A stretch of 64,000 nt of DNA. Origin: Sulfurimicrobium sp. (GTDB lineage: Bacteria; Pseudomonadota; Gammaproteobacteria; Burkholderiales; Sulfuricellaceae). The notes beneath the pieces were generated by a model that worked only from the letters and a program-made list of their open reading frames with translations, searched no databases and was not told where the DNA came from. Shown here one piece after another: positions 40,401-47,324 of this stretch. The DNA lies in assembly GCA_030652035.1 (NCBI GenBank), contig JAUSBJ010000045.1:46250-110249 (forward strand). The letters are read 5' to 3'. The position numbers were made by a program, and so were the translations under genes. Numbering within the stretch: the stretch's first letter is position 1; each line of letters begins with the position of its first letter.

Positions 40401-40509
40401 TGTGAAAAGTGAAGCCACTCGGCTGCGCCTTCGTTGTGAAAAGTGAAATGTAAAATCATCCACGCTGAGTCCTTCACTTTTCACCCTTCACGTTTCACCC
40501 CTCACCGCT
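40401..40509. repeat. GTGAAA-type intergenic hairpin repeat, copy A (sucA-gltA gap)
   Basis: tgtgaaaagtgaagccactcggctgcgccttcgttgtgaaaagtgaaatgtaaaa...ccttcacttttcacccttcacgtttcacccctcacc; inverted arms, same core as copies B and C; overlaps the gltA stop codon. Confidence 0.85.
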
Positions 40510-41794
40510 TCCCGATCGGCACGAATTCCCGCTGCTCAGCTCCGCAATAGAGTTGGCGCGGGCGGCCGATTCTCTGCTCGGGATCGGCAATCATTTCAGA
40601 CCACTGTGAAATCCAGCCAATGGTGCGGGAAATGGCAAAAATCGCGGTAAACATGTTTACCGGGATACCTATCGCCCTGAGTACGATGCCGGAATAGAAG
40701 TCTACGTTGGGGTAGAGTTTTTTCTCGATGAAATAAGGGTCTTCCAGCGCGATACGCTCCAGTTCGAGGGCCGTTTTGAACAGGCGGTCATCCTGCATGC
40801 CAAGTTCATTCAGGACCTCGTGGCAGGTCTTGCGCATCAGATTGGCACGCGGATCAAAATTCTTGTACACCCGGTGGCCAAAGCCCATGAGGCGGAACGG
40901 ATTGCTCTTATCCTTGGCGCGCGCGATCACATCCGGGATATTCGAAACATCGCCGATCTCTTCCAGCATTTTCAGCACCGCCTCGTTCGCGCCGCCATGA
41001 GCGGGCCCCCACAGGGAAGCGATGCCGGCGGCAATGCAGGCAAATGGATTGGCCCCGCTAGAGCCCGCCAGACGCACAGTGGAAGTCGAGGCATTCTGCT
41101 CGTGGTCGGCATGGAGGATGAATATCCGCTCCAGGGCGCGCACCAGCACGGGGTTAGCCACATATTCCTCACACGGGGTAGCGAACATCATGTGCATGAA
41201 GTTTTCCACGTAACCGAGACGATTCTGCGGGTAAACGAAAGGCTGCCCGATATTGTATTTGTATGACATCGCCGCGATGGTCGGCACCTTGGCCAGCATC
41301 CTGAACGCCGAAATCTCGCGGTGACGCGGATCGGCAATATCGAATGAATCGTGGTAAAAGGCCGACAATGCGCCCACCACGCCCACCATCGAAGCCATCG
41401 GATGCGCATCGCGGCGGAAACCGCGGAAAAAATTGTTGATCTGGTCATGCACCATGCTGACCTTGCGCAGGGTATTGTCAAAATCATGACGCTGGCTCCC
41501 GGTCGGCAATTCGCCGTTCAACAACAGGTAACACACCTCCATGAAATCCGCATGCTCGGCGAGTTGTTCGATCGGATAGCCGCGATACAGCAAGATGCCG
41601 GCATCGCCGTCGATGTAGGTAATGCTGGAATTACAGCTCGCCGTCGACATGAAGCCGGGGTCGTAAGTAAATACGCCATGCTTGCCCAGACTGCGGATAT
41701 CGATCACATCCGGTCCCATCGTGGCGGAATAAATGGGCAACTCGATAGGCGGCTGCCCATTTCCCAGATCCAGATATGCCTTGCGTTCAGCCAT
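40502..41794 (-). CDS. gltA: Citrate synthase
   Basis: [36 protein letters not shown]...; [45 protein letters not shown]. Confidence 0.98.
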
Positions 41795-41842
41795 GTCACT
41801 TCTCCATGTATCCGCCGGAAAAACCATCCCGGCTTATTATTT

Positions 41843-42241
41843 TCATCCCTGACAGGCGCGCAGGAATTGCACGATTTCAGGCACGTCCGTTCCACCACCC
41901 CGGATCAGGGTCCACAGATCCTGATCCGGCAAATCGAGCAGGGTATCAAATTCAGCCTGCTGCCGAGCCGTCAGTTTGGTGTAATTTTCCCCTAGAAAGC
42001 GCTCCAGCACCAGATCAAGTTCAAGCATCCCGCGCCGGCAGCGCCAGCGCAGGCGGTTGAGTTCCACTTCCGGCAGCTTCGGTTCTTTATCGCCCCACCC
42101 CCCGGCGGGGCGGTTCTTGCTATCGTCCGCCCAGACAAAACGCCCGAACAGCACGCAGCCCTTCATGCCCGGATTGCAGGGCAAATGATTCACCCTTTGG
42201 CAGTGGCCCTTAATCTCATGCGGGCAGCCCCAGCCACTCAT
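41843..42241 (-). CDS. sdhE: FAD assembly factor SdhE with an N-terminal four-Cys module (apparent in-frame fusion)
   Basis: C-terminal RLRWRCRRGMLELDLVLERFLGENYTKL contains the SdhE RGxxE motif; N-terminal SGWGCPHEIKGHCQRVNHLPCNPGMKGCVLFGRFVW is extra. Confidence 0.85.
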   Translation of the reverse strand: MSGWGCPHEIKGHCQRVNHLPCNPGMKGCVLFGRFVWADDSKNRPAGGWGDKEPKLPEVELNRLRWRCRRGMLELDLVLERFLGENYTKLTARQQAEFDTLLDLPDQDLWTLIRGGGTDVPEIVQFLRACQG

Positions 42242-42312
42242 CGCTTCGCCTCAGGCTTTCTTCATGAATTTGGATTTCAGCGGCATCGCGCCGATGCCGT
42301 CTATCTTCGAAC

Positions 42313-43008
42313 TCACACTGTCCTCTTCACCAGCAATTCCTTGATCTTGCCGATCGCCCGCGTCGGATTCAGCCCCTTGGGGCAGACCTCGACGCAGTTC
42401 ATGATGCTGTGACAGCGGAACAGGCGGTATGGATCTTCCAGATCATCCAGGCGCTCGTTGGTGGCCTGATCGCGGCTGTCGGCGATGAAGCGGTAGGCCT
42501 GCAAGAGGCCGGCCGGGCCGACGAACTTGTCCGGATTCCACCAGAACGAGGGGCAGGAAGTGGAGCAGCAGGCGCACAGGATGCACTCGTACAGCCCGTC
42601 CAGCCCGGCCCTGTCCTCTGGCGATTGCAGGCGCTCGATTTCCGGCTCGGGGTCTTCATTGATGAGATAGGGCTTAATCGAGCGGTAATGCTTGAGAAAC
42701 TGGCTCATGTCGACGATCAGATCGCGGATCACCGGCAGCCCCGGCAGCGGACGCAGTTCGATCGGCTGCTTCAGATCCTTGAGCGGCGTGACGCAAGCCA
42801 GGCCGTTCTTGCCGTTGATGTTCATGCCATCCGAGCCGCACACCCCTTCGCGGCAGGAACGGCGCACGCTTAGGGATTCGTCCTGCTCCTTGAGCAGCAG
42901 GATGGCATCGAGCAACATCTTCCCTTCCGCCTCGATGTCCAGCTCATAGTCCTGCATGTAGGGCTTGGCATCGGTTTCCGGGTTGTAGCGGTAGATCGAG
43001 AATTTCAT
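42313..43008 (-). CDS. sdhB: Succinate dehydrogenase iron-sulfur subunit
   Basis: SCREGVCGSDGMNINGKNGLAC and CILCACCSTSCPSFWWN. Confidence 0.98.
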   Translation of the reverse strand: MKFSIYRYNPETDAKPYMQDYELDIEAEGKMLLDAILLLKEQDESLSVRRSCREGVCGSDGMNINGKNGLACVTPLKDLKQPIELRPLPGLPVIRDLIVDMSQFLKHYRSIKPYLINEDPEPEIERLQSPEDRAGLDGLYECILCACCSTSCPSFWWNPDKFVGPAGLLQAYRFIADSRDQATNERLDDLEDPYRLFRCHSIMNCVEVCPKGLNPTRAIGKIKELLVKRTV

Positions 43009-43020
43009 GGTTTCCTTTCA

Positions 43021-43130
43021 TCAGGAAGTGAAATGTGAAGCCACTTGGCTGCGCCTTCGTTGTGAAAGATGAAAAATAAAACCATCCTCTGCACACACTT
43101 CACCCTTCACATTTCACTCTTCACTTCCTA
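43021..43130. repeat. GTGAAA-type intergenic hairpin repeat, copy B (sdhB-sdhA gap)
   Basis: aggaagtgaaatgtgaagccacttggctgcgccttcgttgtgaaagatgaaa...cttcacatttcactcttcacttcct; arms pair with one 7-nt bulge; abuts the sdhA stop codon. Confidence 0.88.
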
Positions 43131-44891
43131 GTAAACCCTGGCCTTGGGCTGGAACGCCTCCACCGTCAGCGGTTTCAGCCGCACCGGCTTGTAGTCCAGG
43201 CGATGCTCGTCGGCAAAGTACAGGGTGTGTTTCATCCAAGCATTGTCGTCGCGCGCCGGGTAATCGTCGCGCGCATGAGCGCCGCGGCTTTCCTGGCGCG
43301 CGGCGGCGGAATGCATGGTGGCCAGCGCCACGGCCATGAGATTTTCCAGTTCCAGCGCCTCGATCCGGCCGGTGTTGTATATCCTGCTGTGGTCGCGCAG
43401 CACGACATCTGGCAGCCTGGCAGCGATTTCCAGCATCTTTTTCACGCCATTCTGCAGCACGGCCTCGGTACGGAATACGCCGCAATGGAGCTGCATGACC
43501 TTGCGCATTTCCTCGCGCAATTCCGGCACAGTGATGCCGTCGCCTTTCCTGTCCCAGCGCGCCAGGCGCGCCGTGATGCGCTCCAGCGCCTGAGTGGGCA
43601 CAGGGCGCGGGAAAGGGTTTTCGCGGCAATATTCGATCACGTCATTGCCGGCGGCTCGGCCGAACACGATCAGGTCGAGCAGCGAATTGCTGCCCAAGCG
43701 GTTGGCGCCATGCACCGAGACGCAGGCGCATTCGCCGATGGCGTACAGGCCGGGCACCGCTTCTTCCGGACCGGTCCGGGTCGGCATGACCACCTGGCCA
43801 CGCAGATTGGTAGGAATGCCGCCCATCATGTAATGCACCGTGGGCACCACCGGGATCGGGTCGGTAGCCGGATCGACGTGGGCGAATTTCATAGCCAGTT
43901 CGCGGATGCCGGGGAGGCGCTGCTGGATCACTTCCGGCCCGAGGTGATCGAGCTTGAGCAGCACGTGATCGCCATCCTTGCCGCAGCCGCGCCCCTCGAA
44001 AATCTCGACCGCCATGGCGCGTGACACCACGTCGCGGCTGGCCAGGTCCTTGGCATTGGGCGCGTAGCGCTCCATGAAACGCTCGCCATTCCTGTTCACC
44101 AGGTAGCCGCCCTCGCCGCGCGCACCCTCGGTGATCAGCACCCCGGCGCCATGCACCCCGGTGGGATGGAACTGCCAGAATTCCATGTCCTCGAGCGGAA
44201 CACCGGCCCTGAGCGCCATCCCCAGTCCGTCGCCGGTATTGATCAGGGCATTGGTGGTGGCGGAAAAAATCCGCCCCGCCCCGCCGGTGGCGAGGATGGT
44301 GGCGCGCGCCTCGATGAAGATCGTCTCGCCGGATTCGATCCCCAGCGCCACCACGCCCTGGGAATAGCCCTCTTCGTCCATCACCAGGTCGACGGCGAAA
44401 TACTCCTCGAAGAAATGGGTGCGCGCCGCGATGTTGCGCTGGTACAGGGTATGCAGCATGGCGTGGCCAGTCCGGTCGGCCACCGCGCAGGTGCGCACGG
44501 CGGGCGCGCCGCCGTATTCCTGGGTCATGCCGCCGAAAGGGCGCTGGTAGATCTTGCCGTTCTCCAGCCGGTCGAAGGGCATGCCGAAATGTTCCAGCTC
44601 GATCACCGCCTCGTTGGCCTGGCGGCACATGAATTCGATGGCATCCTGGTCGCCGAGGTAATCCGAACCCTTGACCGTGTCGTACATATGCCAGTGCCAG
44701 TTGTCCTCGCTCACGTTGCCAAGGCTGGCGGCAATGCCGCCCTGGGCGGAGACGGTATGGGAGCGGGTGGGAAACACCTTGGACACCACCGCCACCTTGA
44801 GGTCGGCGTGGGCAAGCTGCAGGGCGGCCCTGAGTCCGGCCCCGCCGCCACCGATGATCACTGCATCGAAAGTTCGCTTGGCAATGGTCAT
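43128..44891 (-). CDS. sdhA: Succinate dehydrogenase flavoprotein subunit
   Basis: [36 protein letters not shown] (FAD-binding). Start revised to 44891. Confidence 0.98.
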
Positions 44892-44895
44892 TGAT

Positions 44896-45849
44896 TCACC
44901 CCGATTGGCCGTATGGCCCAAGAAAACGTGTGCCGTTGAAATGGATCAGGTGAGACGGTGCATCGGCCACCCAAACCTCTGATTCCCATGCAATGTCTGG
45001 AAGGTAGCGAGTCATGAGGGCGCGCGAGGGAAACGCCGTCACATAAACCAGCCCGGCGGAAGATCCGGCAAATAGCCTGGAAAGTTCCTGGTGGCGCTTT
45101 CCATCGACCGGGCCATGGCTGGTAACAGATTCAATCAGCAGCAGCCAGTTTCGCTCCGGAAAGTAGATCACCACATCGGGCATCTTGCCGTGGGAATCCA
45201 CTGCGACACCTAGCTTTGCCAGCAACTCCTCATCGAAGTAGCCCCACTTGTCCCCGGTGTCACCCGCGTAGATCAGAACGCCATCCGGCACAAAGCGCGG
45301 CCCGAAGTTCTCAATAATGGCTTTGATCAGCTCGCTATGTTCACCCGGACTGATTTGGATTTCCTTGCCAGCTGCGATCCTCACCGGGATCAAGGTCTGC
45401 TCACGCACTTTTGCATAGCGGGCCGACAAGCTTTTTTGCGTGGGCAAATATTCCTTCAACTTGGCGCCCCACGCAGCCGTTCCATAAGTCTTGAGCAGGG
45501 CAAATACCTCATGCTCGATCTGATAGACAGTTTTAGGGCTGTTTGTCGGTCGATCAAGCTTATCCGGGTTGCGAAGCGCCAGCCCAGCATCAACAAACTG
45601 ATGCACGGTCTGGCGGCGGAAAGTTTCGCGCGTATTCGGCGCGTACTCCTTGCCATAATGTTCGCGGCTGAAATCCATCATGGGAGTAATACCCATCAAC
45701 GGGCTAGCGGCAAGTTTCCATGTCTTTTTCGGGGTCAGGTCGAGCAAAGCCAGCAGGCACAACGCCGAACGCTCGTTCTGCTGCGCGCGGGGAAAACCCA
45801 GTACGGCCAGGATTTGCATTGCCTCGTCAATCTTCTTGTACTCGCTCAT
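44896..45849 (-). CDS. BsuBI/PstI-family type II restriction endonuclease
   Basis: 317 aa with C-terminal catalytic-type region [37 protein letters not shown] (PD-(D/E)xK-like) and N-terminal helical domain; coupled to a methyltransferase. Confidence 0.85.
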
Positions 45850-47324
45850 AGGATACTTCCTAGTCCTTGATCGATTTGTTCCTGCGTAAGCATCCCCTGT
45901 TTCCTAGCCCATCTTCCCAATTTCATCAACACTTCCCGGCTAGGGTATTTCAATAATCTCAGATCGGTAGCGTTAACTTGAGTGTGCCCGCTAAAGCGTC
46001 GGAAACATTCGTCGACTACGCTGGAATTCAGGAACACGGACAAGCCAAGTGCCAAATCCTCGGGCAAGCCCTGTTTGCGATGATGAAAGACATTGAGGTG
46101 GTTCTCGAAACCCAGCAACGGCGTATCGAATACGTCCGGGCAAACCAGATTGGCCACAATGCGGCGTTTCTCCTCCTTGGATGAGAAACGCCGCACCACG
46201 GTATAGAAACCATTGGGGTAAAGCCCTTTTTCGGTTTCAGGGCAACGTATCAAGGCATTGGGTTTTTTCATTCCCGGTTTTGGCCACACCATGACCTGCC
46301 CGGAAAAATGAGCCGGATAAAGCAAGGGAACGGAGTCCTCCTCCGGCATGTCACGCAGGTAAGCTTTCACTCGAAAATCGACCACCGGCCCGGTTGAAAC
46401 CTCAATTCCGATTTCGGCAAGCGAACAATTGAACCCGGAAGACAATCCAGCTGCGCCGCGCTCGGGCGAGGCAGGGACGTGAATGAAGCGCTCCGTGTCG
46501 CCGGGCAGCACTATCTGGTCGAAGGGGTAAACATGGGTAGCAAGATCGGCAAAACTGTCGTCAGTCGAAGTGGACACCTTCACCTCACCCTGTTGGCCCC
46601 CACGCTCAAGCCGGATGATGATGTTTTCCTGCAAGACCTCGTCGTCCTTGAACGCCTTGTCTCGCGAGGCGAATAGGTGCACTTGCCGGATCGCCGTGCG
46701 AGCAAGCAGGTATTCGCGAAAAGGCCGGTAATATGGCCCGTTGCAAAAACTGCGTGGGATGATGGCGACAACTTGCCCGCCTGGCGCCATCAGCGCCACA
46801 GCCAAGGCAACAAAAGCCGAATAGAGATTGACGGTTTCAATGCCAACTTGCCGTAATAGCTGGCGATGGCGTGAGCTACTGCTAATTTTCTTGTATGGCG
46901 GGTTAAGAATGGCATGAGTTAAAAGAGACTCGCCGCCAAACTGAATCCTATTTACGGCATCCTCGATAAAATCATCCACCTCGATCCGGGCATTGAAGTT
47001 GAGCCGAGAACCGTAGCTCGACAGCGTACTGGATAATAAATCATGCAGTTTGCTGTCAATCTCATACAGACTTGCATCAACGCGCCGGAAACCGAAGCCT
47101 CCGCCTGCCCAACGATCCAGAAACGCCCCGGTCAAAGAGCCAACTCCAGCCCCCGCATCAAGCAGGAAAGCATGATCCACCGAACTGGATGCAAACATGG
47201 ATGCCATGAAACGCGCAACAGGTGCCGGCGTCAGAAACTGGCCAAATTCGGACTTGTGTTTTCTGCTGGCCTGCTTTCCGGCTTCCCGACGCGCATTATC
47301 GACATGCTCTAGCAATGGGAACAT
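45846..47324 (-). CDS. N6-adenine DNA methyltransferase (BsuBI/PstI, Eco57I-motif type)
   Basis: GQFLTPAPVARFMASMF, LLDAGAGVGSLTGAFLD (SAM motif), ILNPPYKKI (NPPY motif); 4-bp overlap with the endonuclease. Confidence 0.9.
   Translation of the reverse strand: MFPLLEHVDNARREAGKQASRKHKSEFGQFLTPAPVARFMASMFASSSVDHAFLLDAGAGVGSLTGAFLDRWAGGGFGFRRVDASLYEIDSKLHDLLSSTLSSYGSRLNFNARIEVDDFIEDAVNRIQFGGESLLTHAILNPPYKKISSSSRHRQLLRQVGIETVNLYSAFVALAVALMAPGGQVVAIIPRSFCNGPYYRPFREYLLARTAIRQVHLFASRDKAFKDDEVLQENIIIRLERGGQQGEVKVSTSTDDSFADLATHVYPFDQIVLPGDTERFIHVPASPERGAAGLSSGFNCSLAEIGIEVSTGPVVDFRVKAYLRDMPEEDSVPLLYPAHFSGQVMVWPKPGMKKPNALIRCPETEKGLYPNGFYTVVRRFSSKEEKRRIVANLVCPDVFDTPLLGFENHLNVFHHRKQGLPEDLALGLSVFLNSSVVDECFRRFSGHTQVNATDLRLLKYPSREVLMKLGRWARKQGMLTQEQIDQGLGSIL

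Follow-up and report, generated by a model that had tools for sequence, protein, structure and literature searches.

An in-frame fusion of a conserved four-cysteine protein to SdhE at a variable sdhB-sdhE junction in Sulfurimicrobium

Introduction

In the window, i.e., the whole 64,000-nucleotide stretch of Sulfurimicrobium DNA analyzed here, a single reading frame joins a module with four Cys residues to SdhE, a member of the SdhE/YgfY/Sdh5-SDHAF2 family (PF03937) of flavinylation factors of succinate dehydrogenase (SDH). This architecture raises the question of whether SDH maturation has gained a component in this genus or whether two unrelated proteins have come to share a start codon. A preliminary description of the locus had proposed that the module could act in SDH assembly. 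In open-licence papers, we found nothing relevant on SdhE fusions or on the module motif.

Results

A four-Cys module precedes an ordinary SdhE domain

As the preliminary description had stated, the fused gene is uninterrupted: it starts with ATG, runs for 132 codons without a stop, has Cys residues at positions 6, 14, 22, and 29 (C-x7-C-x7-C-x6-C), and encodes an SdhE domain recognized by Pfam (Table 1). The same description had placed the frame directly after sdhB; instead, a remnant of yjdM/phnA lies in between. The remnant matches positions 51-69 of the Pfam YjdM model with an E value of 8e-4, below that family's cut-off. A whole-genome search found no complete yjdM elsewhere in the window genome, and an intact yjdM stands directly 5' of the module in three congeners (G001, G002, and G003). 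From its sequence, we read the remnant as the end of a deleted yjdM/phnA gene. The order on the minus strand is sdhC, sdhD, a restriction-modification pair, sdhA, sdhB, the yjdM remnant, the fused gene, gltA, and 2-oxoglutarate dehydrogenase genes; sdhC, sdhD, and the 2-oxoglutarate dehydrogenase genes were named by eye from sequence. The pair, a BsuBI/PstI-type restriction enzyme and an Eco57I-type methylase (44896-47324, minus strand), splits the sdh operon.

Table 1. Coordinates of the fused gene, its parts, and its neighbors in the window
Feature	Position	Strand	Evidence
Fused gene (four-Cys module, linker, and SdhE), 132 aa	41843..42241	-	ORF; same architecture in L076/G003:C305
Four-Cys module core, residues 1-45	42107..42241	-	Invariant columns in 93-row alignment A2; spacing count
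Module Cys codons	42224-42226, 42200-42202, 42176-42178, 42155-42157	-	
Linker, residues 46-58 (AGGWGDKEPKLPE)	42068..42106	-	Alignment A1; codon comparison with G003
In-frame GTG, residue 59 (VELNRLRW), candidate but poorly preceded internal start	42065..42067	-	CTG in G003
SdhE domain, residues 62-132, RGxxE motif (CRRGMLELD)	41846..42058	-	Pfam; PDB sequence relatives; Foldseek
GAGG Shine-Dalgarno-like site, 7 bases ahead of the ATG at 42241	42249..42252	-	Sequence
yjdM/phnA remnant, last 20 codons: GTG overlapping the sdhB stop, then SSKIDGIGAMPLKSKFMKKA and a stop	42251..42316	-	Pfam YjdM
sdhB	42313..43008	-	NCBIfam
sdhA (frame; true start probably inside)	43128..44921	-	TIGR01816, 936 bits
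gltA, citrate synthase (likely start at 41794)	40502..41827	-	NCBIfam

Several lines of evidence identify the C-terminal half as SdhE. First, residues 62-116 match Pfam Sdh5 (PF03937) with 74.5 bits (E 6.3e-21, cut-off 27), and the RGxxE motif is present as R69-G70-M-L-E73. Second, its sequence relatives in the PDB are 2jr5, 1puz, 6c12, and 6b58. Third, AlphaFold2 predicts the SdhE helices with a pLDDT of 93-96, and Foldseek matched the model of the fused protein to the SdhE/YgfY structures 6c12, 1x6i, and 6b58 (probability 1.00; E down to 2.5e-3, the query including the unmatched module) and otherwise gave no notable match. The score of 33.8 bits against the NCBIfam equivalog PRK10878 does not reach the cut-off of 120, which limits the equivalog label but not the family membership. 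The protein shares with the SdhE family the motif, the fold, the sdhAB-sdhE-gltA setting, and a nearby SdhA, which carries the 10-residue stretch bearing the FAD-linked His in the SdhA family. It differs by an unrelated N-terminal part of 58 residues and by the lack of a good start codon of its own for SdhE. Based on family membership and the intact motif, the C-terminal half would do the ordinary SdhE job, i.e., covalent attachment of FAD to SdhA.

The module is a widespread, unnamed protein

Residues 1-58 match nothing in Pfam or NCBIfam. In alignments A1 and A2, WGCPHE, C14, PC22, GMKGC29, G33R34, and K42N43 are in register with an unnamed protein family of ∼65 residues, which a scan with one genome per GTDB species found at 397 loci; the linker Glu is the end of the module homology common to the unfused congeners (A1 and codon comparison with G003). 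Rank samples contained the module in 26 of 399 genomes for the order, 27 of 369 for the class, and 24 of 399 for the phylum, always as a single copy; its hosts include Gallionellaceae, Rhodocyclaceae, other gamma- and alphaproteobacteria, Bryobacterales, and Nitrospinota. All 89 relatives with the exact spacing have invariant C6, P7, C14, C22, M26, G28, C29, L31, and G33. Thus, the four-Cys pattern is not a product of chance, and the metal or Fe-S site that the preliminary description had suggested for it is plausible.

We inspected the closest copies (the best 80 of the 397 loci were fetched) together with the rank samples. Outside the window genome, these comprise 139 distinct copies, 137 of which are free-standing and end at most ∼55 residues past the last Cys. 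These proteins share with the window module its sequence, its four-Cys spacing, and its length up to the tail, whereas they have a short charged tail of their own and other gene settings. The search for homologs proposed in the preliminary description did recover a fused version, in a second Sulfurimicrobium genome, G003 (L076), but free-standing copies are the rule. The other exception is L137 (6001-6996, plus strand), where the module frame continues into that of orotidine-5'-phosphate decarboxylase (PyrF), a further fusion partner unrelated to the first.

The spacing of 7-7-6 contains no CxxC, unlike the paired CxxC knuckles of zinc ribbons and rubredoxins, and we know of no site with matching spacing. 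Pfam gave no convincing match for 93 members of the family; stray single matches to Pfam or NCBIfam among them (e.g., TraN, E 0.008) were rejected, as was the best PDB-sequence match of the module profile, an alcohol oxidase (E 0.4), in which the matched stretch resembles a nucleotide-binding GxG region. AlphaFold2 on the module with 93 homologs reached a mean pLDDT of 61 and a pTM of 0.32, which does not suffice for a fold search, and the module part of the models has a pLDDT of about 60. The conserved Cys residues make a small metal-binding domain the probable identity of the module. The N-terminal half would fold around a metal, probably Zn or Fe-S, held by the four Cys residues with His8 perhaps helping, and would serve, without involving SDH, the cytoplasmic function that the free-standing relatives have.

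The gene settings of the module elsewhere do not suggest SDH. In 33 of the 139 loci, its commonest neighbor, yjdM, lies upstream; the gap has a median of 13 bases, and the pairs come mostly from Gallionellaceae, within a ubiE/rluA/ubiB neighborhood. The YjdM/PhnA zinc-ribbon protein (PF08274 and PF03831) is, like the module, small and Cys-containing, but has CPxC knuckles and a PhnA domain, and the module matches neither Pfam model. Other recurrent neighbors are ubiE, rluA, and glnS, and some loci lie beside pyrF. The module follows a membrane protein of ∼75 residues and a creatininase-like gene in seven loci from related genomes of the same phylum (L215, L217, L219, L221, L222, L226, and L227), and this context is a third conserved setting. 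A glutaredoxin gene is near the module in five loci (L104, L110, L115, L130, and L196), and L121 has the module beside a ScdA/Ric-like iron-sulfur repair gene, recognized by eye; these neighbors weakly hint at a redox or Fe-S role.

The sdhB-sdhE junction varies among Sulfurimicrobium genomes

Members of the same family and several further relatives from the order either have an sdhB stop that overlaps the start codon of sdhE (ATGA; overlaps in L034, L036, L047, and L058) or have the two genes tens of bases apart. By contrast, the gap in Sulfurimicrobium measures between 257 bases and nearly 8 kb, and its cargo differs from one genome to almost every other: yjdM, in some cases with the module, an integron integrase with cassette-like genes, a TacA-type antitoxin with an acetyltransferase, or restriction-modification genes (G007). 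The sdhE coding sequence is conserved across the genus from RLRW on, while the sequence preceding it is not. Accordingly, sdhE starts from the module in the window genome (G000) and G003, from a GTG overlapping the integrase stop in G001, G002, and G004, from low-complexity sequence in G005 and G006, and from the end of a modification gene in G007. Module and sdhE are fused in the first two genomes and separate in G001 and G002.

Integrase and sdhE adjoin each other in G002 (L062:9564-13950) and G004 (L071:4211-9808), where the integrase scores 490+ bits against TIGR02249, and in G001 (L064). Cassette-like genes, which in G002 lie between module and integrase, read opposite to intI in G002 and G004, the orientation typical of cassettes; the short G001 contig shows the integrase only. 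Vertical descent of this integron position is unsupported, the intI copies being 72-75% identical even where gltA is 91% identical. The antitoxin and GNAT acetyltransferase pair of G003 lies between sdhB and yjdM (L065:7088-7859, minus strand), and in G006 a fragment of a similar acetyltransferase is joined to the start of the module. In G005 (L072, just after yjdM), the module is cut to MSGWG followed by SKKPKPPEKGGVS and a stop; both ends are kept, and two TGGGG stretches flank the lost four-Cys core. The module remains in G005 and G006 indicate that the site is unstable. A further idea, that repeat elements ended the module tails of G001 and G002, was dropped, as no tail sequence recurs within its genome. 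Altogether, the junction is best explained as an insertion hot spot in Sulfurimicrobium.

A second genome argues for one fused product

The fusion is real: G003 has the same architecture, with the junction at the same position and free of indels relative to the window. The preliminary description had considered the GTG at VELNRLRW as an alternative start of a stand-alone SdhE. Under that reading, two products would arise, with the ATG starting the module and the GTG a short SdhE, perhaps with additional cleavage in the Gly/Pro linker. The GTG does exist, and the VELN stretch resembles the native SdhE N terminus of other genera (MTIELNRLRW in L047). However, no stop separates the halves, and the anti-Shine-Dalgarno duplex ahead of the GTG (-3.5 kcal/mol) abuts the codon, i.e., is mis-spaced, compared with -5.6 kcal/mol for the ATG at 42241. 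In G003, such a start is impossible: the matching codon is CTG, no ATG, GTG, or TTG lies in frame between the module and RLRW, and no other in-frame start precedes the RGM motif. Because G003 has no internal start and the window GTG no well-spaced ribosome site, we argue, short of proof, that one fused protein would be translated, and we consider two products rather unlikely.

Both halves are under purifying selection, since the differences between the two fused genomes are mostly silent (dN/dS 0.17 for the module, 0.30 for SdhE, and 0.24 for the linker, which has few sites). The two genomes are not sisters on a gltA and sdhE tree (AU p 7e-72). The identical, indel-free junction in non-sister genomes implies that the fusion is older than these species or has been exchanged, and that it persisted. 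One possibility is an ancient fusion that relatives afterwards split or lost; the other is recombination that carried it from one lineage to another. That identical fusions arose twice independently is less likely.

Module and SdhE are not linked outside the genus

If the module were a functional add-on for SDH maturation, bringing metal, Fe-S, or redox sensing to the SdhA-SdhE assembly step, this would fit the in-frame fusion beside sdhB, the retention of all four Cys residues, the purifying selection, and the junction common to two non-sister genomes. Yet the distribution of the module argues otherwise. Among 70 module-bearing genomes outside Sulfurimicrobium, 59 contain sdhE; in none of these does the module lie within 70 kb of sdhE on a shared contig, the closest pair being about 75 kb apart (G543), and most have the two on different contigs. 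The other 11 genomes, of which 7 are at least 90% complete, have no SdhE match. Within the genus, four congeners (G004-G007) keep sdhE without the four-Cys module, and G001 and G002 keep the two apart. Thus, SdhE does not need the module, nor the module SdhE, and across taxa the two show neither the linkage nor the co-occurrence expected of an SDH assembly factor. Homologs split from SdhE and without association to sdh come close to what the preliminary description itself had named as grounds for abandoning its proposal. We conclude that a role of the module in SDH assembly is unlikely.

Discussion

Our data support a scenario in which the fusion probably arose by chance, in frame, at a genomic hot spot, as a local rearrangement accident and not as a new assembly machine. 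In relatives, the stop of sdhB overlaps the start of sdhE or lies within tens of bases of it. In Sulfurimicrobium, the gap would then have received the yjdM-module pair, which in Gallionellaceae stands among ubi genes, as well as integrons, toxin-antitoxin genes, and restriction-modification genes; the order of these events is our reconstruction from the present layouts. An insert at the overlap would leave the start codon with sdhB, so that sdhE would have to start from upstream sequence. On the simplest reading, inserts detached sdhE from its own start, and whatever frame lies upstream now starts it; in the window genome and in G003, sdhE would be read through from the ATG of the module. The persistence of the fusion could reflect some benefit, which counts against a pure accident.

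More speculatively, the module may represent a new metalloprotein family with a Cys4 or Cys4-His site, and SdhE action, and with it FAD loading of SDH, may depend on metal or redox state in the fused lineages; we regard this combination as very improbable. An assembly or sequencing error that hides a stop codon, conceivable in two drafts (51 contigs for the window genome, a MAG for G003), is in practice refuted by two separately assembled genomes with 86% identical module DNA and the same frame and junction.

The fused gene is a domain architecture new for SdhE, confined to one genus, that combines a known factor with an unnamed conserved protein; this novelty is real and small in scale. The comparison separates two things that are joined in the window alone, i.e., a conserved four-Cys protein and an unstable sdhB-sdhE junction. 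The protein is small, strongly conserved in hundreds of genomes from several phyla, and without a Pfam or NCBIfam entry, and it merits a family of its own. At the junction, inserts appear to have repeatedly severed the start codon from an overlapping gene, which survives via a new start. The junction thereby illustrates, in compact form, how genes come to be fused by accident and how such fusions last.
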